This document shows, piece after piece, positions 1-63,709 of a DNA stretch of 64,000 nt. A program made the translations under genes and the position numbers. How positions within the stretch are numbered: position 1 is the first letter of the stretch; the number at the start of each line of letters is the position of its first letter. The notes under the pieces were generated by a model. That model had not been told where the DNA came from. It worked only from the letters and a program-made list of their open reading frames with translations, and ran no database searches. This DNA comes from Loxodes magnus (taxonomy: Eukaryota; Ciliophora; Karyorelictea; Loxodida; Loxodidae): contig CAMPDV010000520.1 of the NCBI GenBank assembly GCA_946699065.1, positions 124,001 to 188,000 of the forward strand, given 5' to 3'.

Positions 1-559
1 TAACTTCTTTAACTAATTTAAATTTGTAATTAGTTTCTATAAATGTTACAGTAATTAAATCTTAACTCTAGTTATCATTTTAATTTCTTTCGTTATATCA
101 TAGTAAATTATTTTAACAAATCAAATATTAAAATAATTTTATCTTTGAAAATTGAAAAATTTTAAATTATCTGCAATACATCATAATTATAGAAGATTTG
201 CTTATTAAAACTAATAAATTATTTTATTTTAAATAAGTAAAAGAAATATTTCTTCATAGTAAAGAGTAGTTAAAAGTAAACTAGTATATGAAATAAAATT
301 TTATTTAGAGTAACAAATATTTAATAATAAATTAAATTGTATTTATAATTAATTAGTTTGAACAAAATAATTATAATTAAAAAATTAAATACTTAGTCTA
401 TAAAAATAAACTAATATGAAAGTAATATTTATTTTAGAGAAAATAAAATTTTTATTTTTTGTATTAAGAAAGGATATTTGTTGTTATTGTTTCAAATAAT
501 AAATAACCTCTAAAGTAAAAGTTTATTCCATTTTAATAATTTTAAAAATATTTATAATT

Positions 560-607
560 AAAATAAATAAATAAATAAATAAAGATTATTATAGAGCGCG
601 TAGCACC
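560..607 (-). repeat. SINE-like end fragment
   Basis: A TAAA simple-repeat run is followed by the GAGCGCGTAGCACC block that forms one end of the full elements at 6427, 25277 and 40483. Only this end is present. At 607 the copy-2 equivalent continues for about 68 more bases, so this copy has a secondary deletion. One-ended truncation suits a retroposed short element. Confidence 0.6.
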
Positions 608-749
608 TTTCTATTTATCCAAAGAGTCATTTCAGTTTCACCTAATGGGGAAAATTCTTATTAAAAATTATTCTTAAATCTTGAGTCAAATACTTCAGAC
701 TTCTTGAATAAGATCCAAATAAGAATTAGTAATTAGTCATTAGCAGGCA

Positions 750-905
750 CGTCAGCCAAGCTTTCATATTTTCAAGAGAGAACACTCGGGTAAGTTAGGC
801 TTGTTTCTTCTGAGCTTGTTCATCCTTCCCCATGGTGGCATCTAGTGCGAGATTACTCGCAATGCAGTATACACTGTACCAGATTACCTACTAGTTTGAC
901 TGACG
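750..905 (+). repeat. Left inverted repeat, MITE-like
   Basis: This GC-richer segment is matched in reverse complement by 3429-3569 over about 140 bases, including a shared core GAGATTACTCGCAATGCAGT. It begins CGTCAGCCAA and ends TTTGACTGACG, so it also carries short terminal inverted repeats of its own. It could be the left end of a 2.8-kb DNA transposon or a solo MITE with a second MITE opposite. No transposase was recognised between the repeats. Confidence 0.6.
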
Positions 906-1636
906 CGGCCGACATTCATTTTATATTATATATTAATAAATTTTATTCTTGATTATATTTTATATTCAATTATTAAAAATTTTACTGTAAATAAATAAAA
1001 GAAAAATATTAATAAAATCTGTAGTTTTTAATATGCTAAAATAATTTTTTTAAATAACCTATATTAATTCTAATAAAATATTAGTTTAATATTAAAAAAT
1101 TGTTAAATTATTTAAGTTCTAAAAGTATATTATATTTTAATTTTTAAAAGCTGTACAAGATAGTTTTTTAATATATAAAAATATTTCTACAAATATAGCA
1201 TTTTATTATTTTTAGTAATTGAAAATCAATAAATATCATAATTATTTATATTAAGTTTTCATTATTTTTAGTTAATTTTTTTTAATTATAATTATTTAAT
1301 TTAGATATGAGTTGCTTGGCTTTTTAAATAAAAATTTATTTTTTTGATAATTAAACTTTAAAAACTATTTTTAACTTTTTTAATTTTTAAATTTTGTAAA
1401 TAGCACATTTAATATATCTTAGGATAAATCTTAAATATTAAAATTTTAAATTTCTTTTTTTATTAGCTTTAAACTCAAATTTATTTTTATTAATAATTTA
1501 AAATTTAAGTTTAACTATTTTTTATTTTTTATTTTTATAAATTAATAAATTATTTATGCTTTATTTATTTACTGTTTAATTTAATAAAATATTTGTGTCT
1601 GAAAGAAATTGTTTTACTTTAATCATCTTAATTAAA

Positions 1637-2654
1637 TCAAAGATAAATTAAAGTTTTCTATTGCAAAGGAATTGCAATCTCATACAGAAAAAAACAGTTT
1701 ATACTTTATTATGCTTCAAAAAATGTTTAGGACATACATTTTTTGTAAGATCGAAAACTCGGGATTCTCCAGATTTTTGATTCACATCTACTCTCTGTGT
1801 TCAATTAATCTATTCACTTTTTTGACGTTCCAGTTTGGTTACAGAACAATATGTTAATTTATTTTTAGTTTATCTTTCAAAATGGTCTTAATTTTTCTTT
1901 CTGACTCTTTTTCACGGTACTAATCTTTTCAATAATTTCTTTATAAAACTTAAATTTCTAACAAATCCTAAAGAGATATGAGCAATTTACGCAGTATTAA
2001 AATTTCTTCTTGACAACTTTAAAACACCTTTTACTGATGGATAAGGATTGTTTCTTTTTATATTTCTACTTTTTGCGAATATTCCTTATGCTCTTTTTGT
2101 CGCGGTTTCAGAGCTTTAAGTTATCGTGCTAATTCTTTACTTTTTCGTCAAGTTAGGCAATTTATTTGCTCTAGTCCCATTAGATAGTTCAAAAACATCT
2201 ATTCTCTTTCTTAAATCATCAGTCTCTATTAATTTTAATTTTTTTTTTGCTTCAGTTTTTGATTGATTTTTTGATTCTTTCAATTTAGACCTTTTTCTGA
2301 AGATTGAATTTCATCAGTATTAGATAGCTAATGTTTATTGTCTTTATCCAAAGTATAATTTATACACTGTCTAGATTTTACATTTTCTTTTATTGCTTTG
2401 GTTTCTCTGTCATATTTGAAATTCAGGGATTTATTTCCGTACCTTTCCTATCTTTATGATTTATGGATTTGAACTTTATAAGAAGATGTCGGTTTAATAG
2501 GGCGTAAATTGAAGTATTTCTGCTTCTGATTTTCATTCCTGTTTTGGTAAGAGTTGCAAAAGTTCTTCTCTTAGCATTCTACCTTTTTCTTTCTTTTATA
2601 CAATTTTAGAATATTAAAATAATACTCATTAACATTATAAGTAATTAAATATAT
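1637..2654 (-). pseudogene. Degenerate coiled-coil protein gene, copy 1
   Basis: I do not recognise the family. Read with TAA/TAG as Gln, the minus strand gives a Lys/Glu/Gln-rich coiled-coil region. It contains runs such as KSRQCINYTLDKDNK, ETDDLRKRIDVFELSNGTR and EEILILRKLLISLQDLLE, ending at a TGA at 1639-1637. In the C-terminal half several differences from copy 2 are silent in this frame: TAG/TAA twice, AAA/AAG twice, TCG/TCA once, GAG/GAA once. They would be replacements in other frames, which supports past selection for protein. The start ATG seen in copy 2 is ATA here, and the N- and C-terminal parts are not in the same frame. It lies between the inverted repeats at 750 and 3429, so it could be cargo of a DNA element. 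Confidence 0.5.
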
Positions 2655-2699
2655 AAAAAACTATAAAAATTGCTTTTAAAAATACAGATGGTACAATAA

Positions 2700-3428
2700 T
2701 TAAATATTTTATATTCTATTTATATAGAGATAAACTTACTTTTTTGATAATGAAATATAATCATAATTAATATAAATTCTATTAATTATAAATATTAGTA
2801 AAATTATTTAAATAATTACATTTTATTTATTAGAATTAATTTATTATTTATTATTCTAATATCAATTATAAAAATAATTTACTAAGTATTTTAATTTCTA
2901 ATATGTTAACTTTAATTTTGTGCTATTTTATACTTAAATCCATAAAGTATTTAACTTTTTATTTAGTTTTAGTTAAATTATTAATTAATTAATCATTAAT
3001 ATAATTCGCCCTTCTGCTTGTATGTAAAATTTGAATTGCTAGTATATTTATTTCTTCTTCTAACTTCTTCCTGTCTTGCATTTAATATAAAACCTTGTTT
3101 CTTTCTCAGATTTTTCTAGTTCATGAGAGATAAACTTAAGTATCTGTTTGTTTAAATTCCTATAAGTTAATTTAAATACTTAATATATATTTTAGTTTAA
3201 TTTTAATTTGCTATCATCATCAAAATAAAAGATTCATAACATTAAATTGTGTTACTTCAGAAAAATGTAAACAAATAATTAAATTTAAATGTATAATTTA
3301 AATTTCTCACTTTTAAAATTATTTAGATAAATAGATATAAACATAATTTGGTAATAAACATATCCATATACTAATATTAAGACTATTATATCATTTTAAA
3401 TATGCATGAAGTCATAATTTTAAAATTT
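2700..3428. other. AT-rich spacer
   Basis: Between the coiled-coil gene and the right inverted repeat I see only AT-rich sequence with no recognisable coding motif. The same spacer is kept in duplication copy 2 (21530-22282). Confidence 0.5.
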
Positions 3429-3569
3429 GTAGGTAATCTGGAAAAGTGAATAACTGCATTGCGAGTAATCTCACATTAGATGCCATCACGAATAAGAGTG
3501 GACAAGCTCAAAAGAGATATGCCTAACATGTTAGAAAGCTCTCGCTAACAGTTGAAGTTTTGACTGACG
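3429..3569 (-). repeat. Right inverted repeat
   Basis: Reverse-complement partner of 750-905. It shares the GAGATTACTCGCAATGCAGT core and ends with TTTTGACTGACG, matching the outer CGTCAG end of the left repeat. It encloses the coiled-coil gene at 1637-2654 together with the left repeat. Confidence 0.6.
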
Positions 3570-4199
3570 ATGTTTAAATTTTTTATTTTTATATGAATTT
3601 TATTTTTAGAAAGACTGTGTATTTGCAACAAAATATTAAATAATATTTTAATAATAAGATTCCAAATATGGAGAAGCTTAGGTGTTTCATTTGATAATAT
3701 ACTAAGACAAAAAGAATAATTAGAAAATTTAAATGAAAATAAATAGTTAATTCATGACAAAGCTATTAAAGGTAAAGTCACATTAATAATTTCTGTTTAT
3801 AAAAATATTGGTTATAAACTTATAGTATAAAAACAATATAAACTTAGCTTGATAATAATATTATAGTTAGTCTAATGTCTTTAATATAAATTTTTTAATT
3901 AGTTTGATTTAATATCTTAATTACCTATATTAGTTTATTTATAACTTTATATAAGATTATTAATTTATAATTGATATTGAGCTTAGATATATGTTGAATA
4001 ATAATATTTTTTATTTGAGTTTAATGAAAATTATAATCAGAATAACTTAATAAGGGGTTAATATAAATAAAACAAGATAGTAGAAACTAAAGATTGCAAA
4101 TATGCTTAAACTTTATAAATGTTTCTATAATTTCCATTAATTGTGAATATTACTAATAAATTTCATAAATTAATAAATCTTTTTTAATAAAATTTGATG

Positions 4200-4702
4200 T
4201 CTTAAAAATAAAAGTTATTAATAAAAATAAGACAATATTACAATAAATAAAATTTTAATTTATTTTTATAATTTTATCTTTACTTTGTGTATAACTTCTA
4301 TTTATTTACCATTCATTTTTGTCAATAATTGCTTCCAATTTTTTAACTAGGTATAATTTTTATGCTTTTTAATTAAAAATTTATCTATGTTCCCTTTACA
4401 ATTGTTATCACTCCAACCTTTTAAAATAATTGTTTAAATCTTTAATTCGAAAATATAATTATTTTAATGTATTATACAATTAGTTAAGTTGTTTGTAAAA
4501 GATATAACTTTATTTTTTGATTATGAATGATTAAATTCTTTATATAAATTATTTAATTCTTTTATTTTTTATCTTTACTATTCTATTTATATCTCACCTT
4601 TCATTTAGTTTATTAAAAACTTATTAACCAAACTTTTACTTCATTTAATCTTACAATTTATTACTTATTTACAACTATTTCCTTATCAAAATAGCAGCTC
4701 AT
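4200..4702 (-). CDS. Hypothetical helical protein, copy 1
   Basis: Unrecognised. A minus-strand reading begins with Met-Ser and Phe-Asp-Lys-Glu at 4702 and is followed by a helical, charged region with DLNNYFKRLEW and AIIDKNEWQINRSYTQSKDK. The same start and DLNNY block occur at 23554 and 32625. Glu codons in one copy appear as TAG/TAA (Gln) in another, as expected for real coding sequence under this code. Copies 1 and 2 contain small indels between the start and the DLNNY block, while copy 3 appears to run in frame. It is divergent from the plus-strand ORF at about 4828. The C-terminal end is not fixed. Confidence 0.35.
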
Positions 4703-4827
4703 CAAACTGAGATAACACTAAATTTAAGATCTACAGCCTTTTAAATCATAGATAACCTAACAATCATACCTTAAATTACTTACCTTTATCTCAATAATTA
4801 GAGCACATTTTTTAATAATTTCCATAA

Positions 4828-5520
4828 ATCATGAGAGGAGTAGATTAATCTGAAAATAAAAGTATTTGAACTAATTTTTAGTAATTAATTAAGCAAATAA
4901 ACAGCATTTAATTAAAAATTATGTTACTCTAAAATTATAGTAAAATCTTTAATACAGAATTTAGTTGAAAAGCTTTTAAACATCTAATTACTTAAAAAAT
5001 TAAAAAGAAGACAAAATATAAGAAATTAGAAATATTAATTAAATAAATCATGAATAAGTTATGATTAAAGCTATATAAAATCCAATGGAGGTTGAGTAGT
5101 TAAACTTAAATATTAATCAAATATAGAAAATTAGATAATCAATCAGGTAATAAAAAGAGATCAATTTATGTGCTGATTCTGGAGAAGGCTAGAAAACACA
5201 AAATAAATTGTTGGAGATACCAAAATACAAAAAAGCAAAAATAAATAATTTTTTAAAAAACCTAACTTAAATTTACTGTGCATCTGAAGGTGACTTATAT
5301 AAGAAAAAATGATTGGTGGAGAGTAATTACTCTTGCAAATAATAGACAATCAAAAAAGAAGAACAAAGCAAATGTTTGGAAATGATTGAGATTCGAATAA
5401 AATACTAACGGTAAAGAAAGGGTAGATTAGTAGCCTAAGATATGTAATAAAGTATATGGTTCTGGAGAAGAAATGAACAATTTCAATGAGTCTTTCAATG
5501 ATTCTTGAGACTTTTTATAA
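4828..5520 (+). pseudogene. Hypothetical Cys-containing protein, copy 1
   Basis: Unrecognised family. The plus strand encodes, across at least one frame change, a Lys/Gln-rich region. It includes INHEQVMIKAIQNPMEVEQ, a CADSGEG motif, and INNFLKNLTQIYCASEGD. Equivalent sequence lies at 23690-24360 and, with a different C-terminus, at 32755-33438. The INNFLK-LTQIY block is the best conserved part. It is divergent from the hypothetical gene ending at 4702. Confidence 0.35.
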
Positions 5521-6199
5521 GATAATAAATAGCAAGCCAAATAAAGGCATTTTCACATTATTAAATTATTTTATGTTATTATGCTATTATTTATCTTATA
5601 TATTTACTATTTAAGTCTTTTTCCTTTATTTATAAAAACTATTTACTCACTTTACTAAAAGTTAGATTTATCATTAATATTTAAACTATCCAATTTTTTA
5701 AATATAGTTCTCTGAAAGAATAAAGAGAATGCCTAAGTTCTAGCATAGTGTATATAATAATTTAAAAATAAGTTTATCATTAATTCATCAAACTTTAATT
5801 AATAAAACTATTATGAAATCATATAAACATATGGCTCCAAAGAAATAAGTATCTCCTGTGAAAGCATTTAACAATACACATAACTTAATTAATTATTTTT
5901 ATATGCTATAATTGGAAGAATAGAAGCTAAAAAAAGAAGTTTAAAACACGAAATAAATAACTTATTCTCTTATGTTTACTATCAAAAAATTGATCAATGA
6001 ACTGAACCTTATAAAGAAAATTAGCTGGTTTACCCAAATTCATTCTTACACTTTTTGACGTAATCTTGACTGTATATTTTTTTTAAAGAAATAATTTCTT
6101 GAAATCAGTGTCCTAATATTTATATTCCTTCACTCTTTCTATTATCATTTTATTTATATATATTATTTATCAACTTTGTATTGTCTTTCCATTTCATAG

Positions 6200-7560
6200 C
6201 ATTCACTACGTCTTATCTGCAATTTTCATATTATGATATTAAGATCACTGTTGTAATATTTCAATCATCTCTTGTAGTCTGGACTTACCATCATTTCAAT
6301 GTCATCTGCATGTGCTAATGCTCCCATATATCATTCCTCTGTATATTATTCTTATTCCATGCTTGTGGTTATTCCTACTTTATTTTATCTTAATTAGTTG
6401 AGAAGTTTATTTATTATATATTTTTTAAAACCGCCATAGTTGTTCGAAGGTGAACAACAAGGTCATCTTCATCAGAGGTTGGGGAAGTTAAGTACCCATA
6501 ATCGACTTTATGTCTTCCTCTCCTTTGGTTTGACCTCGAGACATAAGATTCTTAGACCTTCGACACTGGCTTGGCTTGGCTTCGTTTATTTTTAATTCTG
6601 GAACGAAAAAGAAATAATATTGCGAGCTTCATCAGAGGTGGGGAATTTAAGTACCCATAATTGACACATGTCGTCCTCTGCTTTGGTGATGCAATGAGAC
6701 ACAATCCTGCCATGTCCTTGGACCTCCAAAAAGTATTAAAGATTATGAATATTCTAAAATTATATCAGTATTGAACATTTTTATCATTACTGAATAATTA
6801 TACCAGTATTGAACAAGGATTATCAGTAACAAACATTCTTGTCAGTATGAAACATTTTTTTTAAAGAGCTGCGCACCAACGAGAGTGCTACACGCTCTAT
6901 AATCAAATTTATTTATTTATTATTTATTATTTATTCATTATAATATTGAATAACCTTAGTGAACATGAGCTACCTTATTTAACTCCTTTCCTCTTTTAAA
7001 ACTGTTCTGATATTAAATCATTTATTTTTATCTTTTTTTCTTCTCAGTAAGGATCTTGATTATTTGCTTAGGCATTTCAATTTCATTTAGTATCTTTAAT
7101 ATATCTTCTCTTATTACTAAGAAAAAATAATTTTAATATCAATAAATATTCTGCTTTTTCTTAATTATTTTACTTATATTCTTGTGCAGTTCTTAGATTG
7201 AAGATTTATCATGAGCATGATTTATCTTGATTGAAGCCATATTATAATTCATCGTCATACCTGTTCAAATACGAGTTTGTTTATCCAATAATCAGAGATC
7301 AATGATTTTTACTATATGAATTAAAAGTGAAATCGGCCTATAATTCATAGAATCTTCCACTTTACCTTTTTTATGAAGTAATATAATAAAAGTTCTTGTT
7401 ATTTTGTTTGGTATAGCTCCAGATTGTATTATTTTTTATGTTAATGTTGCGGTTAGGTTAGAAAGCTTATCTCATCCAGCTCTTATTGTTCCTATTTATA
7501 TTCCATCAGGTCCTACAGCTTTTCATTAGGAGAGCGTTTTTATACAGCACACTAAATCTT
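6200..7560 (-). pseudogene. LINE reverse transcriptase domain, unit 1
   Basis: RT motifs appear in order on the minus strand: KAVGPDGI (about 7518-7500), NYRPISLL (about 7350-7330), FIDIK (about 7150), GVKQG..CSL.LFNI (about 6990-6940) and, after the SINE, GALAHADDIEMM (about 6325-6295). This domain copies element RNA into DNA at a nicked target in non-LTR elements. The palm motif reads HADD here, with His for the usual aromatic, while unit 2 reads YADN. FIDIK is in a different frame from NYRPIS, so the ORF is broken. Confidence 0.85.
6427..6938 (+). mobile_element. Dimeric SINE-like element in LINE RT, unit 1
   Basis: About 510 bases inserted in the LINE RT coding region. One end has CCGCCATAG and a perfect 7-bp hairpin (GTTGTTC/GAACAAC). 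Two related repeats follow, sharing CATCAGAGGT, TTAAGTACCCATAAT and TCCTCTGCTTTGGT. Next come short repeats of the form ATCAGTATTGAACA. The other end is an imperfect palindrome (GAGCTGCGCACC...GCTACACGCTC) with a TTTA-type tail. AT-rich flanks look like target duplications. Orientation is uncertain: the simple-repeat tail suggests the plus strand, but a T-run at the CCGCC end would suit Pol III termination on the minus strand. It resembles a dimeric SINE. Confidence 0.65.
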
Positions 7561-7999
7561 CTTTTTAAACCTAAATTTTTTATGTGTTCCTGTATGAGTC
7601 TGGTAATCTATTGCTGCCACTTTTATAGAGCTCCTCTCAGCTTTCTTTAAAATTCGGCATATTATTTTCGTTTTTTAATGTCCATTGTTCGTATTTTATC
7701 TATTTTAATTTTTTTATATTCCTTTTCAAGTGTTGTTTAAGCTTCCTTAATTAATTTCATCTTAATAAACATTGAATTTATTTTTCCTATCTTTTTTTAG
7801 ATGCAATATAAATTTCTCCTTACTTCTTATCTCATTTAATATAATTATCAATTTATTAGCATCCTTATCTAATTAGATACTTTACTTATTTCACTTACTA
7901 TTAGAAATGTTTTCTTAATTTTATTGTTTCTGCTGTATATTAGTATTTTCTAATTTAATTTGTTACAAATCCACATATCGCTTTGGTCGCTTCTTGGAT

Positions 8000-8850
8000 T
8001 TAATTTAACCATTTTTCATAGTATGCTTCGCTATCGAAATTTTGAATTCGCTAAGATCTATTTTTTCGAATCATTCTTTGAATCTCTCTTTAACCTTTTA
8101 TTGCTTTAATTGTTGAAATTTTATCCTTTTAATTTATGGACTTTTTCTAAATTCTTCCGAAATTTTTATCTTTATTTGTCTGGCTAATGATCTCCTATTG
8201 GTCTCTATTGATAGAATTTTGTGCTGATAATGCTAGGTGTAATGTATTGATTCATTAAGAATCAACTTATTTTCAATTTTCCATTCTTTTATGTTGTGAT
8301 GATGGTTGGATATTGATTTGAATCTTTACATTCTAAAATATAATCTTTCTTCAATTTAATAAGCATTAGCCTGCATTATTCTGCTCATAAGGTAAAAATT
8401 GGGGAATATGTACATTAAAATCTTCTAATATTAAAATTTATAATCCTTTGTTGTTTGCTGCTATTTTGTATTATTATAGACTTTCATAAAAGGGTATTAG
8501 TTAATTATAGTTGGATGTTATAGTTTTATATACGTTTATCAATTCTAGCTAATCATCAAGTGTTAAACTTATTAATCTTCCACTAAAACAGATCTGCTTG
8601 ATTGAGATCCGCTATATCCAACACTTTCGTTCTGCTCGTAATTTCATCTTTTATATAAAATGATACTCTTTTGTAGTGTTTTGTGCTCAATTTTATTATT
8701 GCTCTGAATCCGTATATATAAGGCATTTAATCAGTTTGATGCTTAAATATTTCTTAAATCGCCATAATTTCTATCTTCTTTTCACACATAAACTTGTTTA
8801 ATTCTTGTTTTTTTATATTACTCTGACATTTGCTGTGCCTATGTTTAATT
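8000..8850 (-). pseudogene. LINE APE-type endonuclease domain, unit 1
   Basis: Minus-strand segments in two or three frames give the order of an apurinic-like endonuclease: KFMCEKKIEIMAIQEIF (about 8780-8745), RVSFYIKDEI (about 8665-8640), LELINVYKTI (about 8545-8520) and ILILEDFNVHI (about 8430-8405). The last is the (G/E)DFN active-site block. This domain nicks the target DNA for target-primed reverse transcription. A frame change between FYIKDEI and LELINVY marks it as decayed. Confidence 0.8.
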
Positions 8851-9419
8851 CTGTATATTTTATTTATTATTATTTCCTTTTACTTCCTATTTTACTACCC
8901 TGAATTTTTAGCTTCCTCTTCTTTAATAGAGTGAAAACCAAATTGTTCTAATATTTATTATTTTTCCTGTATTTATGTCTTCGTTTTTTTACTCGATATT
9001 GTCTTCCTTTCCATTATATATTTTTTTCTATTTTTTTGAGACAGTGTTGTATTTATGCATACTTCCTTCCTGTCACTGTTTTATATATGTTTCAGTTTTT
9101 TTGGTATATTTCATATTTTACTTTCTGTTTTTTGTGACATTGATAGTTTCGCCTCAGTTTTATTTATTTAATTTTGTAGTTAAGTATCTATTAAAATCGA
9201 TCGCTTTTAAAGAAACTTTAATATGGCTTAAACTTGTAGCTTTTTCTAGAAATAAAAGTGGTATTTTATTTGAAGGTTAATCTTCTTCAGTTTTCTTCAC
9301 TTTCTTTTCTTTCGCTATCTGTTTCTCTTTATAGTAAGGCATTTTATTCCTAAGTTCTACATGCATCAACCTGGTTTTTACTTCCTTAGCATTTCTAATT
9401 GCTTTCTTTATAGCTTTTT

Positions 9420-9650
9420 TATTAAGTATTAATTTTTGCTATATCCTTATTTGTTGCAGTTTAAACATTTTAAAATTGATGGTTGGCGATACAACGATAT
9501 GTGTATGGGATTTCCAGACTGACTCAAGTAAGTATTTTACCTTTCGTCTAACTTATCTAGTATACTTTCTGCGTCTTTGCTCTCCTTTAATTCTAAATAA
9601 ATTCTCATTTTCCCATTGACTCACGTTATACCTTTTACATCTCTATACAG
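9420..9650 (-). pseudogene. LINE ORF1 zinc-knuckle remnant, unit 1
   Basis: The minus strand reads CLNCNKQGYS, a CX2C start of a CCHC knuckle whose His and last Cys are missing. The paralogous position at 39774 reads CMNCNQKGYS. Upstream is an Arg/Glu-rich stretch. CCHC knuckles in ORF1 or gag proteins bind nucleic acid. In units 1 and 2 a WD40-like micro-insertion (9481-9523) lies just upstream of the knuckle. Confidence 0.55.
9481..9523 (+). other. WD40-signature micro-insertion
   Basis: About 40 bases with no counterpart in unit 3 at the same LINE position (near 39800). On the plus strand, antisense to the LINE, they read GDTTICVWDFQTD, which matches the ETIKIWDFQTG blade end of the WD40 genes near 46.5 and 60.3 kb. 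The flanks are ordinary LINE sequence. Also present at 28355-28398. Confidence 0.6.
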
Positions 9651-10339
9651 ACTATTTTTCCGTACTGCTATAGATGGGTTTCTACCTGGCTAAAACTTGA
9701 ATACATGTTAATTGTTCAATGAATCAGATAGCTCTTAATGTATTGAATTCCTCTATGTTTCTTTGTTCTTTAGGTATTAAAAAACTTCTAGTCTTCTATG
9801 TTTAATTATTTCCAATTTGTGAGAGTGCTTCTTTATTTTTGATTCACATAATAATTATTCCTTTTTAAGAATTTTCATACTCTCAGAATTTTTACCATAT
9901 TCTTAATTTAAATATCTGAGAAATGCTTGAATTATTTCATTTTCTTGCATTTCTGCTGGATTGAGCCTTTGGCTGTAGTATTCTTCTTCTAAAAATTTAT
10001 TGAAACAGGTAACTCATACGCATTTAGCCGTTTTGAACTGCATATTCTTCTCCTCATTTTATGGTAATTTGCTATTTTATTTTCTTCTTCCATTATAATG
10101 ATTTGCACAGAGCTGTGGTTTGAGTTGATGTTCTAAATTATCTACTGTTTTTGATAGGTTACTTAGTTTTAAGATTTCTGTCCTTTTTTTTCTGCATTAC
10201 TTCTAGTAGTTATAATATTTTGCGACAGAGTCTTTTTTCTTAAAAATAATATCAAAAATCTTATTAAGTTGTAAAGCTCTTTCATTTCTTTATTAAATTT
10301 AATAACTAATCTCGATCCGAGATTGGCGGCATGTGGAAT

Positions 10340-10487
10340 ATAGGATTGCTACTTGATATAATAGCTTAATATTGTAGTATTTAAGTAAATAAAGTAATAA
10401 TGTAATAGTTGATATAATTGAGTGTATTTTTGATGGTAACTGTTATAAATTACCTTTATAGCTTTTGTAGTCTAAATAATAATAAAA
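10340..10487 (+). promoter_or_regulatory. Shared upstream region of RING-Kelch gene 1
   Basis: About 150 bases between the LINE 5' end and the ATG are strongly conserved in all four units (from 29215, 41120 and 54935). The shared block includes TTAATATTGTAGTATTTAAG and the run TAGTCTAAATAATAATAAAA just before the ATG. Conservation here, higher than in the LINE beside it, suggests promoter and 5' UTR. No specific factor site can be named. Confidence 0.4.
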
Positions 10488-11882
10488 ATGTAAGCGTTAC
10501 CAAAATGCTTAATCTGCTTAGAAGATTACAACTTAACTAATGCTCTTCCAACTGTCTTACCTTGTGGACATATTTACTGTGGTTTGTGTTTGAATACTTA
10601 GTACTGATTATAAGGCATAATGTAATGTCCTATTTGTTAAAAAGGATTCCATTTTAGATTTGATGATTTACCTTAAGAAAGTGATTTAATAAGAATGATA
10701 TTTTAAAACTAATAATACATATAAAAGATTTAAGATGCTAGATAGAAATTAAAAGAGATAAGGAGGTAAATTATGGAAAAATCTAAAACCATTACAACCA
10801 AATAATCAAACATTAGTAATACTCTCATAATACCACTAACTAATATCATCATCAATCATTAACCAACATTTATCTACCAAAAATAACACTCAAATATTAT
10901 CTAATTCTACTAATCACTAAAACCAACTATACTCTAATATAACTCATAACCACCTACAATACTAAAGTCTAAATTAACTTACAATCTAATAAGATAAAAA
11001 CTATAACACAATACTAAGTAACCAAATATTATTTAGACTAACTAACATAAACTAACCTAACACTTTATATAATCTAACTATATTCACTTTTTTAATTGAT
11101 GGATTTAAAAATTAAGTTTATTTAATATTTAAACAGAGTAATTACGATAAGTCTAAGTTTAAATTATAATTCCAAACTATAGTAAAAGTATAGAATATTA
11201 AAATAAGTTATATTTAATTGGAGGAATTAACTAAAATTAAAATAAAGGAATAAAAGAAACTTGGTAGTTCGATTATGAAGGTAATAGAATAAAACTTAGT
11301 GATCTAAATGAGGGAAGAGGTGACTTTGGAATAGCTGCAGCTTAAAAATATGTTTATGTGTTTGGAGGATTAACTAATAATTATCAAGCACTATAATCAG
11401 TAGAAAAGTTAAAGATAGGAAACTAGAGTAAATGATAAAACTGCTCTTAATTTCCAATCTAAATAGCAGATTTAACTTTAGTAATAGATCAAGATGAATA
11501 AAATATTTATTCTTTTGGAGGGATAAATTAGAAAGGATAAACTTTACAAGATATATGAAAATATAATATTTAGAATGATAGATGGAGTAAGTTAAATTTG
11601 AATCTTCCTGAAGCTGTTGCTGGGCCTATAGTTTCTTTAATGCCTTTTGTCATATGTGGAGGTTTAAAAAATGGATTTACGAAAGAATTTTCAAGAAGAA
11701 TATATAAAAGAAGCAAAGAATAATGATAATAAAGCTAAATTTTTTAAAATGTTGTGGCTTTAACGGAGATGAAAATAAGAAATAACTATGGATATGTTTT
11801 TGCTATAGAATAAGAAAGCGTTTCAATAATGAGGATTGATTTAGAAAAATTGAGTTATAGAAGTATTAGAAGTAATAACTGA
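10488..11882 (+). CDS. RING-Kelch protein, probable E3 ubiquitin ligase, gene 1
   Basis: 464 residues with TAA/TAG as Gln, ending at TGA. Residues 7-50 form a C3HC4 RING: C7, C10, C26, H28, C31, C34, C47, C50. RINGs of this kind recruit an E2 for ubiquitin transfer. Residues about 80-200 are a low-complexity Asn/Gln/Thr/Ile linker. From about 243 a Kelch propeller follows, with GG at 245-246, and later VFGG, SFGG and ICGG blades with conserved Trp. Internal TGA codons at 40, 204, 316, 357 and 413 read as Trp; 316 (SKWQN) and 357 (DIWKYN) are Kelch tryptophans. The start is the ATG before QALPKCLIC, identical in all four copies. Variable boxes are residues 203-205 (NWW) and 229-231 (PNY), and the GG loops vary between copies. 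No break is seen. Confidence 0.88.
11094..11180 (+). other. Two hypervariable 9-base boxes in RING-Kelch gene 1
   Basis: Positions 11094-11102 and 11172-11180 differ almost completely between the four genes, while sequence on both sides is nearly identical. Box 1 encodes NWW, NCL, DFT and DQW in genes 1 to 4; box 2 encodes PNY, QYN, PEL and HVG. Both lie between the constant linker and the first Kelch blade and keep the frame. Confidence 0.75.
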
Positions 11883-11989
11883 TAAACATAATAATAATAT
11901 CTATATTATTAATAATATTTATAATAAATATAATTTAATATGTAAAGAAGTAGTTTAAAGATCTATAATTAGGTAAATATGTTAATACT

Positions 11990-12430
11990 TATTAAAATAT
12001 TTAAAGCGTCTGAAATAAATAAAGAATCAAATTTTATCTAAACATCTTTAAAAATCTATTATTCAAATATTATCATTATTCAGATACAAACATACAGCTT
12101 ATAACATACTTATATTCAACATAGTCAAAAGAACTATCTTTAAATACATCCTTATATTCAAATTATGCAAGTACTACTAAGATTACTATTTATCTAATCA
12201 AATCAAAACTATAATAAAATCATAATTAAGCTATACCTATATCTAAATACTAATTAAGTCATCACTACTATCATCAAGTAAGCATCTTAAACCCTTAAAT
12301 ACATTATTCCTTTAATCATTTAAACCAAAATCTATATACTTAAAAATGTCCCTTTTATAACCAATAATAAAGTCAAGCCATTATAGCACCTATACTCTCG
12401 TTTAAAATTCAATCATAAGATAAGATAATA
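11990..12430 (+). other. G-poor tract downstream of RING-Kelch gene 1
   Basis: This AT-rich stretch has very few G on the plus strand. It is shared with 30840-31310, 42780-43200 and 56580-57000. It leads into the plus-strand LINE-like element and may encode the Asn/Ser/Thr-rich N-terminus of its ORF1. In unit 1 the gag-like insertion separates the two. Coding status is uncertain. Confidence 0.35.
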
Positions 12431-17763: not shown

Positions 17764-18771
17764 TTGCAGTTAAAATATTATGTAATTAGCATTTTTTATC
17801 TATTTATTATATCTAAATTGCTATTTTTTAATACTTTTTAATCATAAAGCACTTAAATATTTGGTCTTCCCTCTCCATAATATTCTTATATTCTTATAGT
17901 TCAAATTTCCTACATCTATTCTCAACACTAAAAGGCTTGATAAATCTAGAATAAAAGAATAAGGAAATCTATCTCGAGTTCTAAATCCTGATAAATTATA
18001 AGAATTAAGTTTAAATACTATTTATATTATTATTCACTCTTTCTTTTATATATTTTTCTGGAATATTCTATTTTAATTCAATTTTTTATTTTTCCTACCA
18101 TAATAAGAGGTTCTAATAACACTAACGTAAAACACTTCAAGAAGATTGAAATAATATTAGTTTCATGTATCATTCTATATATTATACTTTCATATATCAT
18201 TTATAACTTTTGTTTAATTTATTCCTCTAAATGAATATATATTTTCTTCTCTTTTATCTGCTACTAATTTCTAAAGTGCTATTTCAAAAGGAAATTAACG
18301 CTTCTACTAAATTTTGGAATTAATACATTTATTTTAACTTCTTTAATTTATTCTGTTTCTATATTAAACAATCAAAATCTTTAAGTGTTAACTATTAGCT
18401 AATTATTTATTATAACTAAGTTATTTTCTTTTACTGCACTTGTTAAATTAAATAGATATAAGCAGCATTAACATAGTTTCTTCATTTACATTTTAATTAT
18501 TATATTAATACGTTATAGTTTATAAAAGCTTTAGATTATTAGCATTTAAGTAATTTAAAGTTTAAGAATATAATTTTAATTAATTTAGTTTATAATTTAA
18601 TATACATAATATGTAAATACTTATTTACCTAATTATTAATATATTAAATTCACTTATTTAAAATTACTAAGTTATAATACTAACATCAATATAATATATT
18701 TTCAGTTATTAAAGCACTAAATAATTGGAAGTTTATTAGATTTATTAATTAATTAAAAGTAAATACATTTT
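17764..18771. other. AT-rich intergenic sequence before duplication copy 2
   Basis: No coding motif, repeat or RNA is recognised. Its right edge is the start of duplication A copy 2. Confidence 0.4.
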
Positions 18772-19334
18772 TAACTTCTTTAGCTAATTAGAATTTGTAA
18801 TTAGGTTCTATAAATGCTACATTAATTAAATCTTAACTCTAGTTATCATTTTAATTACTTTCGTTATATCATAGTAAATTATTTTAACAAATCAAATATT
18901 AAAATAATTTTATCTTTGAAAATTGAAAAATTTTAGATTATCTACAATACATCATAATTATAGAAGATTTACTTATTAGAACTAATAAATTATTTTATTT
19001 TAAATAGTAAAAGAAATATTTCTTCATAGTAAAGAGTAGTTAAAATTAAACTAGTATATTAAATAAAATTTTATTTAGAGTAACAAATATTTAAGAATAA
19101 ATTAAATTGTATTTATAATTAATTAGTTTGAACAAAATAATTATAATTATAAAATTAAATACTTAGGCTAGAAAAATAAACTAATATGAAAGTAATATTT
19201 ATTGAAGAGAAAATAAAATTTTTATTTTTTGTATTAAGAAAGGATATTTGTTGTTATTGTTTCAAATAATAAATAACCTCTAAAGTAAAAGTTTATTCCA
19301 TTTTAATAATTTTAAAAATATTTATAATTAAAAT

Positions 19335-19402
19335 AAATAAATAAATAAAGATTATTATAGAGCGCGTAGCACCTCGTTGATGCACAGCTCTTTCAGTATT
19401 AA
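19335..19402 (-). repeat. SINE-like end fragment, copy 2
   Basis: A TAAA run is followed by GAGCGCGTAGCACC, CTCGTTGATGC and a GCTCTTT end, the palindromic end of the SINE-like element without its body. This copy keeps the whole palindrome, which is partly deleted at 607 in copy 1. Confidence 0.6.
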
Positions 19403-19584
19403 TATTTAATATTAAAAAAAGTGTTCTCAAAAGCTTGATTTTATTCTATTCATCCAAAGAGTCATTTCAGTTTCACCTAATGGGGAAAATTCTTATTAAA
19501 AATTATTCTTAAATCTTGAGTCAAATACTTCAGACTTCTTGAATAAGGTCCAAATAAGAATTAGTAATTAGTCATTAGCAGGCA

Positions 19585-19740
19585 CGTCAGCCAAGCTTTC
19601 ATATTTTCAAGAGAGAACACTCGGGTAAGTTAGACTTGTTTCTTCTGAGCTTGTTCATCCTTCCCCATGGTGGTATCTAGTGCGAGATTACTCGCAATGC
19701 AGTATACACTGCACCAGATTACCTACTAGTTTGACTGACG
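19585..19740 (+). repeat. Left inverted repeat, copy 2
   Basis: Same as 750-905 with a few substitutions, bounded by CGTCAGCCAA and TTTGACTGACG. Its partner is 22283-22422. Confidence 0.6.
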
Positions 19741-20479
19741 CGGCCGACATTCATTTTATATTATATATTAATAAATTTTATTCTTGATTATATTTTATAT
19801 TCAATTATTAAAAATTTTACTATAAATAAATAAAAGAAAAATATTAATAAAATCTGTAGTTTTTAATATGCTAAAATAATTTTTTTAAATAACCTATATT
19901 AATTCTAATAAAATATTAGTTTAATATTAAAAAATTGTTAAATAATTTAAGTTCTAGAATTATATTATATTTTAATTTTTAAAAGCTGTACAAGATAGTT
20001 TTTTAATATATAAAAATATTTCTACAAATATATCATTTTATTATTTTTAGTAATTGAAAATAAATAAATATCATAATTATTTATATTAAGTTTTCATTAT
20101 TTTTAGTTCATTTTTTTTAATTATAATTATTTAATTTAGATATGAGTTTCTTGGCTTTTTAAATAAAAATTTATTTTTTTGATAATTAAACTTTAAAAAC
20201 TACTTTTAACTTTTTTAATTTTTAAATTTTGTAAATAGCACATTTAATATATCTTAGGATAAATCTTAAATATTAAAATTTTAAATTTCTTTTTTTATTA
20301 GCTTTAAACTCAAATTTATTTTTATTAATAATTTAAAATTTAAAATTTAAGCTTATTTATTTTTTATTTTTTAATTTTTATAAATTAATAAATTATTTAT
20401 GCTTTATTTATTTAATGTTTAATTTAATAAAATATTTGTGTCTGGAAGAAATTGTTTTACTTTAATCATCTTAATTAAA

Positions 20480-21498
20480 TCAAAGATAAATTAAAGTTTT
20501 CTATTGCAAAGGAATTGCAATCTCATACAGAAAAAAACAGTTTATACTTTATTATGCTTCAAAAAATGTTTAGGACATACATTTTTTGTAAGATTGAAAA
20601 CTCGGGATTCTCCAGATTTTTGATTCACATCTACTCTCTGTGTTCAATTAATCTATTCACTTTTTTGACGTTCCAGTTTGGCTACAGAACAATATGTTAA
20701 TTTATTTTTAGTTTATCTTTCAAAATGGTCTTAATTTTTCTTTCTGACTCTTTTTCACGGTATTAATCTTTTCAATAATTTCTTTATAAAACTTAAATTT
20801 CTAACAAATCCTAAAGAGATATGAGCAACTTACGCAGTATTAAAATTTCTTCTTGACAACTTTAAAACACCTTTTACTGATGGATAAGGATTGCTTCCTT
20901 TTATATTTCTACTTTTTGCGAATATTCCTTTTGTTCTTTTTGTCGCGCGTTTCAGAGCTTTAAGTTATCGTGTTAATTCTTTACTTTTTCGTCAAGTTAG
21001 GCAATTTATTTGCTCTAGTCCCATTAGATAGTTCAAAAACATCTATTTCTCTTTCTTAAATCATCAGTCTCGATTAACTCTTATATTTTTTTGCTTCAGT
21101 TTTTGATTGATTTTTTGATTCTTTCAATTTAGACCTTTTTCTGAAGATTGAATTTCATCAGTATTAGATAGCTAATGTTTATTGTCTTTATCCAAAGTAT
21201 AATTTATACACTGTCTAGATTTTACATTTTCTTTTATTGCTTTGGTTTCTCTGTCATATTTGAAATTCAGGGATTTATTTCCGTACCTTTCCTATCTTTA
21301 TGATTTATGGATTTGAACTTTATAAGAAGATGTCGGTTTAAGAGGGCGTAAATTGAAGTATTTCTGCTTCTGATTTTCATTCCTGTTTTGGTAAGAGTTG
21401 CAAAAGTTCTTCTTGTAGCATTCTACCTTTTTCTTTCTTTTATACAATTTTAGGATATTAAAATAATACTCAGTAACATTATAAGTAATTAAATACAT
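20480..21498 (-). pseudogene. Degenerate coiled-coil protein gene, copy 2
   Basis: Equivalent of 1637-2654. The ATG at 21498 starts MYLITYNVTEYYFNILKLYK, followed by KKKVECYKKNFCNSYQNR. Relative to copy 1 there is an extra base in the GAGAAATAG run and another in CGCGCG, each shifting the frame, so neither copy is intact across its length. Most substitutions in the C-terminal half are silent in the coiled-coil frame. Function unknown. Confidence 0.5.
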
Positions 21499-22282
21499 AA
21501 AAAATAATAAAAATTGCTTTTAAAAATACAGATGGTACAATAATTAAAATTTTATATTCTATTTATATAGAGATAAACTTACTTTTTTGATAATGAAATA
21601 TAATCATAATTAATATAAATTCTATTAATTATAAATATTAGTAAAATTATTTAAATAATTACATTTTATTTATTAGAATTAATTTATTATTTATTATTTA
21701 TTATTCTAATATCAATTATAAAAAATAATTTACTAAGTATTTTAATTTCTAATATGTTAACTTTAATTTTGTGCTATTTTATACTTAAATCCATAAAGTA
21801 TTTAACTTTTTATTTATTGTTTTAGTTAAATTATTAATTAATTAATCATTAATATAATTCGCCCTTCTGCTTGTATGTAAAATTTGAATTTCTAGTATAT
21901 TTATTTCTTCTTCTAACTTCTTCCTGTCTTGGATTTAATATAAAACCTTGTTTCTTTCTCAGATTTTTCTAGTTAATGAGAGATAAACTTAAGTATCTGC
22001 TTCTTTAAATTCCTATAAGTTAATTTAAATGCTTAATATATATTTTAGTTTAATTTTAATTTGCTATCATCATCAAAATAAAAGATTAATAACATTAAAT
22101 TGTATTACTTCAGAAAAATGAAAACAAATAATTAAATTTAAATGTTTAATTTTAAATTTCTCACTTTTAAAATTATTTAGATAAATAGATATAAACATAA
22201 TTTGGTAATAAACATATCCATATACTAATATTAAGACTATTATATCATTTAAAATATGCATGAAGTCATAGTCTGAAAATTT

Positions 22283-22422
22283 GTAGGTAATCTGGAACAG
22301 TGAATAACTGCATTGCAGTAATCTCACATTAGATGCCATCACGAATTAAAGTGGACAAGCTCAAAAGAGATATGCCTAACTTGTTCTAGAGCTCTCGCTA
22401 ACATTCGAAGTTTTGACTGACG
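22283..22422 (-). repeat. Right inverted repeat, copy 2
   Basis: Reverse-complement partner of 19585-19740. A base is missing in the shared core (GCATTGCAGTAATC) compared with copy 1. Confidence 0.55.
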
Positions 22423-29363: not shown

Positions 29364-30755
29364 ATGTAAGCGTTACCAAAATGCTTAATCTGCTTAGAAG
29401 ATTACAACTTAACTAATGCTCTTCCAACTGTCTTACCTTGTGGACATATTTACTGTGGTTTGTGTTTGAATACTGAGTACTGATTATAAGGCATAATGTA
29501 ATGTCCTATTTGTTAAAAAGGATTCCATTTTAGATTTGATGATTTACCTTAAGAAAGTGATTTAATAAGAATGATATTTTAAAACTAATAATACATATAA
29601 AAGATTTAAGATGCTAGATAGAAATTAAAAGAGATAAGGAGGTAAATTATGGAAAAATCTAAAACCATTACAACCAAATAATCAAACATTAGTAATACTC
29701 TCATAATACCACTAACTAATATCATCATCAATCATTAACCAACATTTATCTACCAAAAATAACACTCAAATATTATCTAATTCTACTAATCACTAAAACC
29801 AACTATACTCTAATATAACTCATAACCACCTACAATACTAAAGTCTAAATTAACTTACAATCTAATAAGATACAAACTATAACACAATACTAAGTAACCA
29901 AATATTATTTAGACTAATTAACATAAACTAACCTAACACTTTATATAATCTAACTATATTCACTTATTTAATTGCTTAATTTAAAAATTAAGTTTATTTA
30001 ATATTTAAACAGAGTAATTACGATAAGTCTAAGTTTAAATTATAATTCAATACAATAGTAAAAGTATAGAATATTAGAATAAGTTATATTTCATTGGAGG
30101 ATATAATGAAAATTAAAAGAAAGGAATAAAAGAAACTTGGTAGTTCGATTATGAAGGTAATAGTATAAAACTTAGTGATCTAAATGAGGGAAGAGGTGCC
30201 TTTGGAATAGCAGCTGCTTAAAAATTTCTTTATGTGGCTGGAGGAGTTAATAATAATCAAGTTTTATAATCAGTAGAAAAGTTAAATATAGAAAACTAAA
30301 GTAAATGATAAAATTGTTCTTAATTTCCATTCTAAATAGCAGGTTAAACTTTAGTAGTAGATAAAGACGAATAAAATATTTATTCTTTTGGAGGGTCAAA
30401 TTATAAAGCATAAACTTTAAAAGATATATGAAAGTATAACATATAGAATGATAGATGAAGTAAGTAAAATTTGAGTCTTCCTGAAGCTGTTGCAAGGCCT
30501 ATAGTTTGTTTAGAGCCTTTTGTCATATGTGGAGGTTTGAAAAATTATTCTACGAAAGAATATTCAAGAAGAATATATAAAAGAAGCAAAGAATAATGAT
30601 AATAAAGTTAAATTTTTAAAGATATTAAGGCTTTAACGGAGATGAAAATAAGAAATAACTATGGATATGTTTTTGCTATAGAATAGGAAAGAGTTTCAAT
30701 AATGAGGATTGATTTAGAAAAATTGAGTTATAGAAGTATTAGAAGTCATAACTGA
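29364..30755 (+). CDS. RING-Kelch protein, probable E3 ubiquitin ligase, gene 2
   Basis: 463 residues, one codon shorter than the other copies because of a deletion in a Kelch loop. The RING and linker match gene 1 except for a few changes (for example Glu for Gln at residue 38). Internal TGA occurs at codon 40 and at the Kelch tryptophans SKW and DIW. TGA also stands in DRW (30456-30458), where gene 1 has TGG, so the exchange is silent only if TGA is Trp. Variable boxes read NCL and QYN. Blade loops read GGYNENQ, GGVNNN, GGSNYK and GGLKNYST. It starts at the shared ATG after AATAATAATAAAA and ends at the conserved TGA. It is head-to-head with the unit 2 LINE. Confidence 0.87.
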
Positions 30756-41270: not shown

Positions 41271-42665
41271 ATGTAAGCGTTACCAAAATGCTTAATCTGC
41301 TTAGAAGATTACAACTTAACTAATGCTCTTCCAACTGTCTTACCTTGTGGACATATTTACTGTGGTTTGTGTTTGAATACTGAGTACTGATTATAAGGCA
41401 TAATGTAATGTCCTATTTGTTAAAAAGGATTCCATTTTAGATTTGATGATTTACCTTAAGAAAGTGATTTAATAAGAATGATATTTTAAAACTAATAATA
41501 CATATAAAAGATTTAAGATGCTAGATAGAAATTAAAAGAGATAAGGAGGTAAATTATGGAAAAATCTAAAACCATTACAACCAAATAATCAAACATTAGT
41601 AATACTCTCATAATACCACTAACTAATATCATCATCAATCATTAACCAACATTTATCTACCAAAAATAACACTCAAATATTATCTAATTCTACTAATCAC
41701 TAAAACCAACTATACTCTAATATAACTCATAACCACCTACAATACTAAAGTCTAAATTAACTTACAATCTAATAAGATAAAAACTATAACACAATACTAA
41801 GTAACCAAATATTATTTAGACTAATTAACATAAACTAACCTAACACTTTATATAATCTAACTATATTCACTTTTTTGATTTCACAATTTAAAAATTAAGT
41901 TTATTTAATATTTAAACAGAGTAATTACGATAAGTCTAAGTTTAAATTATAATTCCAGAACTTAGTAGAAGTATAGAATATTAGAATAAGTTATATTTAA
42001 TTGGAGGATATAACATAAATTAAGAGAAAGGAATAAAAGAAACTTGATAATTTGATTATGAAGGTAATAGAATAAAACTTAGTGATCTAAATGAGGGAAG
42101 ATGTGGCTTTGGAATAGCAGCTGCTTAAAAATATATTTATGTGGTTGGAGGAATTACTAATAATAATCAACGGTAATAATCAGTAGAAAAGTTAAAGATA
42201 AGAAACTAAAGTAAATGATAAAACTGTTCTTAGTTTCCATTTTAAATAGCAGGCTAAACTTTAGTAGTAGATAAAGATGAATAAAATATTTATTCTTTTG
42301 GAGGGTTTAATTAGAAAGTATAAACTTTGAAAGATATATGAAAATATAACATATAGAATGATGGATGGAGTAAGTAAAATTTGAATCTTCCTGAAGCAGT
42401 TCTTAGGCCTATAGTTTGTTTAGAACCTTTTGTCATATTTGGAGGTATGAAAAATGCATTTACGAAAGAATTTTCAAGAAGAATATATAAAAGAAGCAAA
42501 GAATAGTGGTAATAAAGTTAAATTTTTAAAGATGTTTTAGCTTTAACGGAGATGAAAATAAGAAATAACTTTGGATATGTTTTTGCTATAGAAAAGCCAA
42601 GAGTTTCAATAATGAGAATTGATTTAGAAAAATTGAGTTATAAAAGTATTTAAAATCACAACTGA
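41271..42665 (+). CDS. RING-Kelch protein, probable E3 ubiquitin ligase, gene 3
   Basis: 464 residues, same start, RING and linker as genes 1 and 2. Codon 259 (ETW, 42045-42047) is TGA here but TGG in genes 1 and 2, while DRW is TGG. Variable boxes read DFT and PEL. Blade loops read GGYNINQE, GGITNNNQR, GGFNQKV and GGMKNAFT. The ICGG of genes 1 and 2 is IFGG here. The TGA at 42663-42665 matches the end of the other copies. No frameshift is seen. It lies between the truncated LINE (minus) and a LINE-like element (plus). Confidence 0.87.
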
Positions 42666-47960: not shown

Positions 47961-47963
47961 CAT

Positions 47964-55070: not shown

Positions 55071-56465
55071 ATGTAAGCGTTACCAAAATGCTTAATCTGC
55101 TTAGAAGATTACAACTTAACTAATGCTCTTCCAACTGTCTTACCTTGTGGACATATTTACTGTGGTTTGTGTTTGAATACTGAGTACTGATTATAAGGCA
55201 TAATGTAATGTCCTATTTGTTAAAAAGGATTCCATTTTAGATTTGATGATTTACCTTAAGAAAGTGATTTAATAAGAATGATATTTTAAAACTAATAATA
55301 CATATAAAAGATTTAAGATGCTAGATAGAAATTAAAAGAGATAAGGAGGTAAATTATGGAAAAATCTAAAACCATTACAACCAAATAATCAAACATTAGT
55401 AATACTCTCATAATACCACTAACTAATATCATCATCAATCATTAACCAACATTTATCTACCAAAAATAACACTCAAATATTATCTAATTCTACTAATCAC
55501 TAAAACCAACTATACTCTAATATAACTCATAACCACCTACAATACTAAAGTCTAAATTAACTTACAATCTAATAAGATACAAACTATAACACAATACTAA
55601 GTAACCAAATATTATTTAGACTAATTAACATAAACTAACCTAGCACTTTATATAATCTAACTATATTCACTTTTTTGATTAATGAATTTAAAAATTAAGT
55701 TTATTTAATATTTAAACAGAGTAATTACGATAAGTCTAAGTTTAAATTATAATTCATGTTGGTAGTAAAAGTATAGAATATTAAAATAAGTTATATTTAA
55801 TTGGAGGATATAACAAAAATTAAAAGAAAGGAATAAAAGAAACTTGATAGTTTGATTTTGAAGGTAATAGAATAAAACTTAGTGATCTAAATGAGGGAAG
55901 ATGTGGCTTTGGAATAGCAGCTGCTTAAAAATATATTTATGTGGTTGGAGGATTTACTAGTAATAATCAAGTTTTATAATCAGTAGAAAAGTTAAAGATA
56001 GGAAACTAGAGTAAATGATAAAACTGCTCTTAATTTTCATTCAAAATAGGAGGTTAAACTTTAGTAGTAGATAAAGATGAATAAAATATTTATTCTTTTG
56101 GAGGTGGAAATTAGAAAGTATAAACTTTACAAGATATATGAAAATATAGCATATAGAATGATAGATGAAGTAAGTAAAATTTGAATCTTCCTGAAGCTGT
56201 TGCTAGGCCTATAGTTTGTTTAGAGCCTTTTATCATATTTGGAGGTATGAAAAATGGATTTACGAATAAATATTCAAGAAGAATATATAAAAGAAGCAAA
56301 GAATAGTGGTAATAAAGCTAAATTTTTAAAGATTTTGGAGCTTTAACGGAGATGAAAATAAGAAATAACTATGGATATGTTTTTGCTATAGAATAAGAAA
56401 GCGTTTCAATAATGAGGATTGATTTAGAAAAATTGAGTTATAGAAGTATTAGAAGTCATAACTGA
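55071..56465 (+). CDS. RING-Kelch protein, probable E3 ubiquitin ligase, gene 4
   Basis: 464 residues with the constant RING and linker. TGA stands at codon 259 (ETW) and at codon 366 (DRW, 56166-56168), where other copies use TGG. Variable boxes read DQW and HVG. Blade loops read GGYNKNQK, GGFTSNNQ, GGGNQKV and GGMKNGFT. It ends at the shared TGA 56463-56465. Start and context are as for the other three genes. The minus-strand frame at 56111-56299 is antisense to the Kelch region and not a gene. Confidence 0.87.
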
Positions 56466-62000: not shown

Positions 62001-62004
62001 GCAT

Positions 62005-63700: not shown

Positions 63701-63709
63701 CTTTATAAA

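Follow-up and report, generated by a model that had tools for sequence, protein, structure and literature searches.

A putative RING-Kelch ubiquitin ligase family with a near-identical 5' half and a diversified propeller face in the karyorelict ciliate Loxodes magnus

Introduction

The described systems closest to the genes considered here are the NWD proteins of Podospora anserina, the finTRIM proteins of teleost fish and the Kelch protein KEAP1. In the available part of the Podospora study (PMC1805685), HET-D and HET-E carry pairs of positively selected residues in the d-a loop and the b-c turn, at the top of the propeller, and repeat units are exchanged by concerted evolution within and between genes. 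The finTRIM family has 84 genes in zebrafish, and the accessible sections of its description report positive selection in the RING and B-box regions as well (PMC2657112). The ligand contacts of KEAP1, as given in the portion at hand of another paper (PMC6891428), are Tyr334, Ser363, Arg415, Arg483, Ser508, Tyr525, Ser555, Ala556, Tyr572, Phe577 and Ser602. Here we describe a family of RING-Kelch genes found in a window of Loxodes magnus DNA, by which we mean the whole stretch of 64,000 nucleotides analysed (assembly GCA_946699065.1, contig CAMPDV010000520.1, positions 124,001 to 188,000 of the forward strand).

Copies of these genes have a near-identical 5' half, diversification falls on the binding face of the Kelch propeller, where nonsynonymous exceeds synonymous diversity, and loop variants are common to copies on different contigs. 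We argue from these features that the genes of this large family in a karyorelict ciliate probably encode RING-type ubiquitin ligases made of a single chain, with a near-constant RING and linker and a six-bladed Kelch propeller whose diversified face would choose the target.

Results

The window was translated with TAA and TAG as glutamine and with TGA as tryptophan as well as terminal stop. A sequence-only reading of the window had claimed four intact RING-Kelch paralogues, and all four (K1-K4) were recovered on the plus strand. Each is an open frame in the variant code with Pfam RING and Kelch matches, those of K1 being above cut-offs.

10488..11882, plus strand: RING-Kelch gene K1, 464 residues and TGA stop
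29364..30755, plus strand: RING-Kelch gene K2, 463 residues and TGA stop
41271..42665, plus strand: RING-Kelch gene K3, 464 residues and TGA stop
55071..56465, plus strand: RING-Kelch gene K4, 464 residues and TGA stop

The four proteins are collinear, with the RING at residues 6-52 and the Kelch propeller from about residue 200 to the end (Pfam). The interval 11094-11880, to which the sequence-only reading had drawn attention, is most of the Kelch half of K1. The blade-1 strings that it quoted (GG-INQNQN, GG-YNENQK, GG-YNINQE and GG-YNKNQK) are present as written, as are the series L/V/I/F and I/S/F/G at position +1 of other loops.

Genome-wide searches were made in the assembly containing the window (705,730,643 bases, 7843 contigs). 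The exact 44-base gene start occurs 725 times, a count of exact matches from which altered starts are excluded, and its reversed control 0 times; by this count the family has hundreds of members. A 510-base query from the 5' half gave 1055 first-look candidates, of which 40 were scored, all at 100% identity. We compared 79 copies, 4 from the window and 75 from outside it, after setting aside 13 duplicate rows (12 second retrievals of places already included, and L060, a second place identical to L059) and L078, which is too short and lies at the same locus as L035. The terminal TGA is reached in frame in 73 of the 79. Five copies (L020, L026, L049, L051 and L094) carry frameshifts; L077, otherwise collinear, has TAA at the position of the terminal TGA. 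With these six non-intact copies excluded and 11 near-identical ones removed, the non-redundant set holds 62 copies, 58 of them from outside the window.

The constant half of K1 contains the following features.

10503..10643, plus strand: C3HC4 RING finger, residues 6-52 (zf-RING_UBOX 1.9e-09, zf-RING_2 4e-08)
10428..11027, plus strand: near-identical DNA island of leader from -60, RING and linker (sharp 5' edge, low diversity)
10768..11087, plus strand: G-depleted linker within the island (G makes up 2.2% of the coding strand in copy L010)

The RING is complete, with all eight metal ligands present, and its closest PDB matches are RNF4, TRIM25 and RNF8. Near-identity holds at the DNA level, not merely that of the protein, from -60 to about +540. 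In 38 copies with flanks, nucleotide diversity (pi) was taken in 60-base bins: upstream of -60 it is 0.12-0.27, in the 60 bases preceding the ATG 0.016, and from there to +540 0.000-0.003; from +600 across the Kelch half and into the 3' flank it is 0.06-0.12, and it climbs past +1740. Because most of the 38 had been chosen by identity, the profile was redone on the first 53 copies in listing order, which have a median of 4 mismatches to the majority over 496 positions. In 42 main copies of these 53, pi is 0.0057 in the island (nucleotides 44-539), 0.094 in the Kelch half and 0.224 upstream, stepping from 0.33 to 0.00 at -60; the remaining 11 are more deviant, at up to 94 positions. What the sequence-only reading had called a constant catalytic half is supported with one limit: in 7 of the 79 copies (L063, L072, L076 and L090-L093, from contigs C24, C35 and C122) the latter half of the RING has a different sequence at residues 33-46, with the metal ligands kept.

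Selection was gauged by pairwise nonsynonymous and synonymous diversity (piN and piS), since the recombination found would confound tree methods. Over codons 1-188, piN and piS are both 0.017 (ratio 0.99) in the 58-copy set, divergent subfamilies included. Silent sites thus vary about as little as replacement sites, and therefore homogenisation or a nucleic-acid function is needed besides protein-level constraint. The linker stays open and near-identical though it is almost free of G; the divergent copies L089 and L094 have more, 5.3% and 9.1%.

The variable half of K1 is laid out as follows.

11052..11879, plus strand: Kelch propeller half, codons 189-464, diversified (Pfam, structure model, diversity measures)
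11097..11102, plus strand: hypervariable codons 204-205, BC turn of the first partial blade (window alignment; 58 outside copies)
11175..11180, plus strand: hypervariable strand-A-start pair, codons 230-231 (window alignment; 58 outside copies)
11226..11243, plus strand: post-GG loop of blade 1, codons 247-252, varying at +1, +3 and +6 (window alignment; outside copies)
11319..11324, plus strand: strand-A-start pair, codons 278-279, which align with Ser-Gly within GRSGVG of a SAKe designed Kelch chain
11370..11390, plus strand: post-GG loop, codons 295-301 (window alignment; 58 outside copies)
11466..11471, plus strand: strand-A-start pair, codons 327-328 (58 outside copies)
11523..11537, plus strand: post-GG loop, codons 346-350 (window alignment; 58 outside copies)
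11619..11624, plus strand: strand-A-start pair, codons 378-379 (58 outside copies)
11664..11687, plus strand: post-GG loop, codons 393-400 (window alignment; 58 outside copies)
11751..11756, plus strand: strand-A-start pair, codons 422-423 (window alignment; 58 outside copies)
11805..11816, plus strand: BC turn of the last blade, codons 440-443 (58 outside copies)

Profile matches and a structure model together establish a predicted Kelch propeller fold for this half. The model used was built on a 42-row alignment and has a predicted local distance difference test score (pLDDT) of 69.5; a first model, from a 4-row alignment (pLDDT 36.6), was unusable for the fold and shows, at low confidence, a helix at 64-101, after the RING, where TRIM proteins have a coiled coil. 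Loop borders were placed by hand from the Kelch pattern. A preliminary site table of 38 copies used position classes picked after viewing the data, and we relied instead on tests in the 58 outside copies, to which the diversity values that follow refer.

Eighteen codons with at least three states among K1-K4 were picked in the window and then scored outside it. Their mean entropy is 2.07 bits, compared with 0.38 for the other 258 Kelch codons, so the post-GG variability pointed out by the sequence-only reading is beyond chance. At the window-picked codons piN is 0.433 and piS 0.242, a ratio of 1.79 (bootstrap 1.59-1.99), and at the other 258 they are 0.063 and 0.122 (ratio 0.51). That replacements are not uniform over the Kelch domain came from comparing the two faces: piN is 0.203 (piS 0.175) in the 73 codons of the binding-face BC and DA loops, against 0.044 (piS 0.101) in the 60 codons of the opposite-face AB and CD loops and 0.043 (piS 0.126) in the 124 codons of strands and the rest. 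Nor are variable sites scattered off the face, as 27 of the 31 codons above 1.3 bits lie in BC and DA loops, 2 in AB and CD loops and 2 elsewhere (the four off the binding face are 267, 289, 311 and 390). A hypervariable codon is found in 11 of 11 binding-face loops versus 2 of 11 opposite-face loops. The diversified recognition face proposed by the sequence-only reading was thus borne out, in that variable codons concentrate in the loop classes of the KEAP1 ligand face. That reading had missed the strand-A-start pairs 230/231, 278/279, 327/328, 378/379 and 422/423, which vary like the post-GG positions, as well as the DNA-level near-identity of the RING and linker half and the hundreds of family members. 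At 16 hypervariable codons pi approaches saturation at the first and second positions (0.57 and 0.56), and 61% of differing codon pairs there have two or three base changes, compared with 8% for the opposite face and 6% for the remainder.

Variants in the Kelch half are shuffled between copies. Across 59 biallelic sites in the 62 non-redundant copies, the linkage measure r2 is 0.066 within 30 nucleotides and 0.02-0.04 farther away, declining with distance (Spearman -0.12, permutation p 0.002), with a four-gamete fraction between 0.69 and 0.89. Of the 62 copies, 43 have at codons 203-206 a haplotype common to another copy, in all 43 cases with a partner that differs by over 7% elsewhere; at codons 294-303 the number of sharing copies is only 18, 12 of them with such a partner. 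In some close pairs the differences fall into one or two short clusters; L058 and L059, for instance, differ at codons 227-231, 249 and 252 with zero silent change. Kelch-half proteins are distinct in 69 of 73 copies, and all 62 non-redundant copies are distinct at 18 hypervariable positions, with a median difference of 14 of 18; this set of positions was chosen from outside copies and is not the same as the window-picked 18. Given very low linkage in the Kelch half and the recurrence of loop variants in diverged copies, selection with short-tract shuffling is suggested as the diversifier. The simplest account of these sequences would be mutation together with frequent gene conversion of short tracts, selection being diversifying on the face and purifying on the framework.

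That TGA is read as tryptophan is supported by its alternation with TGG among 73 copies at three conserved Trp codons, 259, 366 and 413 (TGA:TGG of 54:19, 23:50 and 48:25). Of the 3927 glutamine codons in the alignment, 3682 are TAA or TAG. The L. magnus genome paper, in the text available, describes UGA as both Trp and stop (PMC11441545).

The window genes lie in large duplicated blocks, 1-12418 matching 18772-31298 at 96-97% identity and 41001-49982 matching 54786-64000 at 93-95%. One further copy was seen.

18021..18298, minus strand: decayed, frameshifted fifth Kelch copy, inverted (70-74% DNA match to K1-K4)

A piece of about 520 bases (40483-41000), just upstream of K3 and missing at that site in K1, K2 and K4, matches 6413-6921 and 25264-25797, inverted, at 90-92%; it is likely a mobile repeat, judging from these matches. 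Six-frame scans of four 4.9-kilobase (kb) stretches between K1-K4, part of the window, gave no further Pfam domain, and a codon-usage scan, trained on the RING-Kelch genes, found those genes only. Beyond the window the listed copies are arrayed at a median spacing of 14.6 kb (62 intervals below 40 kb, on 9 contigs of known length). Contig C132 holds 27 listed copies, some spaced regularly at 6.9 kb, which suggests a young tandem array. On 8 of the 9 contigs the listed copies lie at most 204 kb from a contig end (up to 350 kb on C132). A telomeric location was considered and dropped, because no telomere repeat was seen by eye in the portions inspected of five contig ends and contigs also break in repeats. 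Contig C22, at the end of which L098 lies, terminates in apparent tandemly repeated Cys-rich coding sequence.

A full-length protein search gave no relative at E 0.001, and a search of viral contigs gave none. Such absence means little, since standard-code gene callers would break a RING-Kelch protein. A region search gave 4 matches and a profile search seeded from them 545; among the best 120 of the 545 and the 4 region matches there are only distant Kelch proteins, and the named source organisms are bacterial. A literature search of partial coverage found no fitting precedent for a recognition repertoire in ciliates or Loxodes, a paper on radial spokes being among its listings, and in the available main text of the L. 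magnus genome paper neither 'kelch' nor 'ubiquitin' occurs (PMC11441545).

Discussion

The sampled copies combine a RING and a propeller in one chain. RING fingers of this class recruit a ubiquitin-conjugating enzyme (E2), and Kelch faces bind peptides. In the mechanism that we propose, the RING would recruit E2, the ligand-binding face of the propeller would select the target, and each copy would ubiquitinate a different ligand. Diversifying selection would act on target recognition, and short-tract gene conversion would reshuffle the loop variants with the framework and the 5' half held uniform, so that the product would be a repertoire for recognising targets that are numerous or change fast. 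These targets would most plausibly be non-self, namely parasite, virus or mobile-element proteins, or allelic self; the sequence signal here does not tell a parasite target from an allelic-self one.

Several points weigh against this proposal. The case is built from sequence, and expression, binding and ligase activity are predictions. The 725 gene starts may count both haplotypes, the initial 39 copies were best-scoring matches and hence biased to island identity, and the listing-order sample of 53 still demanded the exact 44-base start. Purifying selection on the RING and linker half is not demonstrated, because the ratio of 0.99 in the 58-copy set stands against 0.18 in the first, identity-biased 38. 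Because TAA, TAG and TGA can each be read as an amino acid, an intact frame proves only the lack of frameshifts. The structure model is weak in its last blades, and piN/piS is a measure of pairwise diversity, with no codon model. The ratio for the BC and DA loops as a whole is only 1.16 (BC 1.28, DA 1.02), and for the 20 post-GG codons of the sequence-only reading it is 1.37. Some close pairs differ mainly outside hypervariable codons: L065 and L067 differ at 0 of 18 such codons, and 8 of the 15 differences between K1 and L009 are silent.

It is possible, if improbable in our view, that the same diversified ligases act on many endogenous proteins, as an adaptor set like that of F-box families, and not on non-self. 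The same sequence data would fit this reading. However, near-saturated diversity in mostly unique combinations resembles open-ended diversification more than fixed one-to-one adaptors, and copies within contigs are only slightly more similar than copies between them (median difference 0.087 for 37 pairs of neighbours less than 20 kb apart, versus 0.097 for 2414 pairs on different contigs).

We consider it rather unlikely that the DNA of the 5' island acts as a selfish or regulatory element, a target of homology-dependent silencing or of conversion templated by complementary DNA, whose identity would be uninformative on RING function. The sharp edge at -60, identity extending to silent sites and a linker nearly free of G would suit such an element. 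On the other side, it is a guess that transcripts start at the edge (window position about 10428), a search for RNA structure in the island found none (z -0.21), and face-specific Kelch variation is left unexplained.

That targeted mutagenesis of chosen codons and not selection makes the variation, through codon replacement or a process like that of diversity-generating retroelements, is very unlikely. Codons 204-205 and 229-231 are wholly rewritten amid little or no other change, and the multi-base codon changes noted above point the same way. Diversity-generating retroelements make adenine-directed variation, from a template repeat with a reverse transcriptase nearby. In the RING-Kelch genes, by contrast, variable codons differ by all four bases with no single-base signature, many loop haplotypes are common to several copies, which points to copying, and a reverse-transcriptase domain was not found in the four 4.9-kb stretches scanned, part of the window.

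Finally, relaxed constraint, under which a repeat that was amplified and is mostly useless drifts in its loops, with the framework lagging behind, would fit genes among repeats with no Pfam domain in the stretches between them, five frameshifted copies and one lacking the terminal TGA, but it is already disfavoured and highly improbable, given the piN/piS of 1.79 at window-picked codons, a piN there (0.43) above the upstream non-coding pi (0.12-0.27), the conservation of exposed opposite-face loops and the framework ratio of 0.51.

A bolder form of the proposed repertoire, which we offer tentatively and think doubtful, would be antibody-like: hundreds of genes for intracellular ligases whose propeller face is V-like and whose RING half is C-like, with loops shuffled by genome-wide short-tract conversion, a separate process keeping the C half identical, and non-self or parasite proteins marked for degradation. 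Identity of the C half could be kept by copying from transcripts, as the island begins sharply at -60. In either form the family has the appearance of a large inherited recognition repertoire in a microbe. Hundreds of natural variants on one propeller scaffold would be a resource for learning how faces choose ligands, and the genes a system for studying how a genome holds one half of a gene identical and the other diverse.

Compared with KEAP1 and the KLHL proteins, as far as the source at hand describes them, the RING-Kelch proteins likewise have a six-bladed Kelch propeller with variable sites in the loop classes that hold KEAP1 contacts (BC and DA). KEAP1 joins CUL3 through BTB and BACK; the RING-Kelch family has a RING within the same chain, and neither BTB nor BACK is listed by Pfam for K1-K4 at a threshold of 10, where HMMER filters drop most matches above 0.1. 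The finTRIM proteins, in the part of their description available, have B30.2 where Kelch is found here, and B-boxes as well, in a host that is an animal with adaptive immunity (PMC2657112). For K1-K4 Pfam lists no B-box after the RING, and no B30.2/PRY-SPRY C-terminus was found, Kelch being in its place.

The Podospora NWD proteins, within the portion of the account available, resemble the RING-Kelch family in having a propeller recognition domain with diversified residues at the same topological places, the d-a loop and the b-c turn, and in the exchange of variants between gene copies. They differ in that theirs is a WD40 and NACHT protein and ours a Kelch and RING ligase by prediction (neither NACHT nor WD40 is listed by Pfam for K1-K4), in that they number 10 genes and about 70 repeat units against hundreds of RING-Kelch genes, and in that whole repeat units in variable number are exchanged there, and short tracts here, at nearly fixed length. 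If our proposal is true, the design logic of the HET-D/HET-E propeller and of finTRIM would have arisen again in a protist, on a larger scale and with the effector built in.
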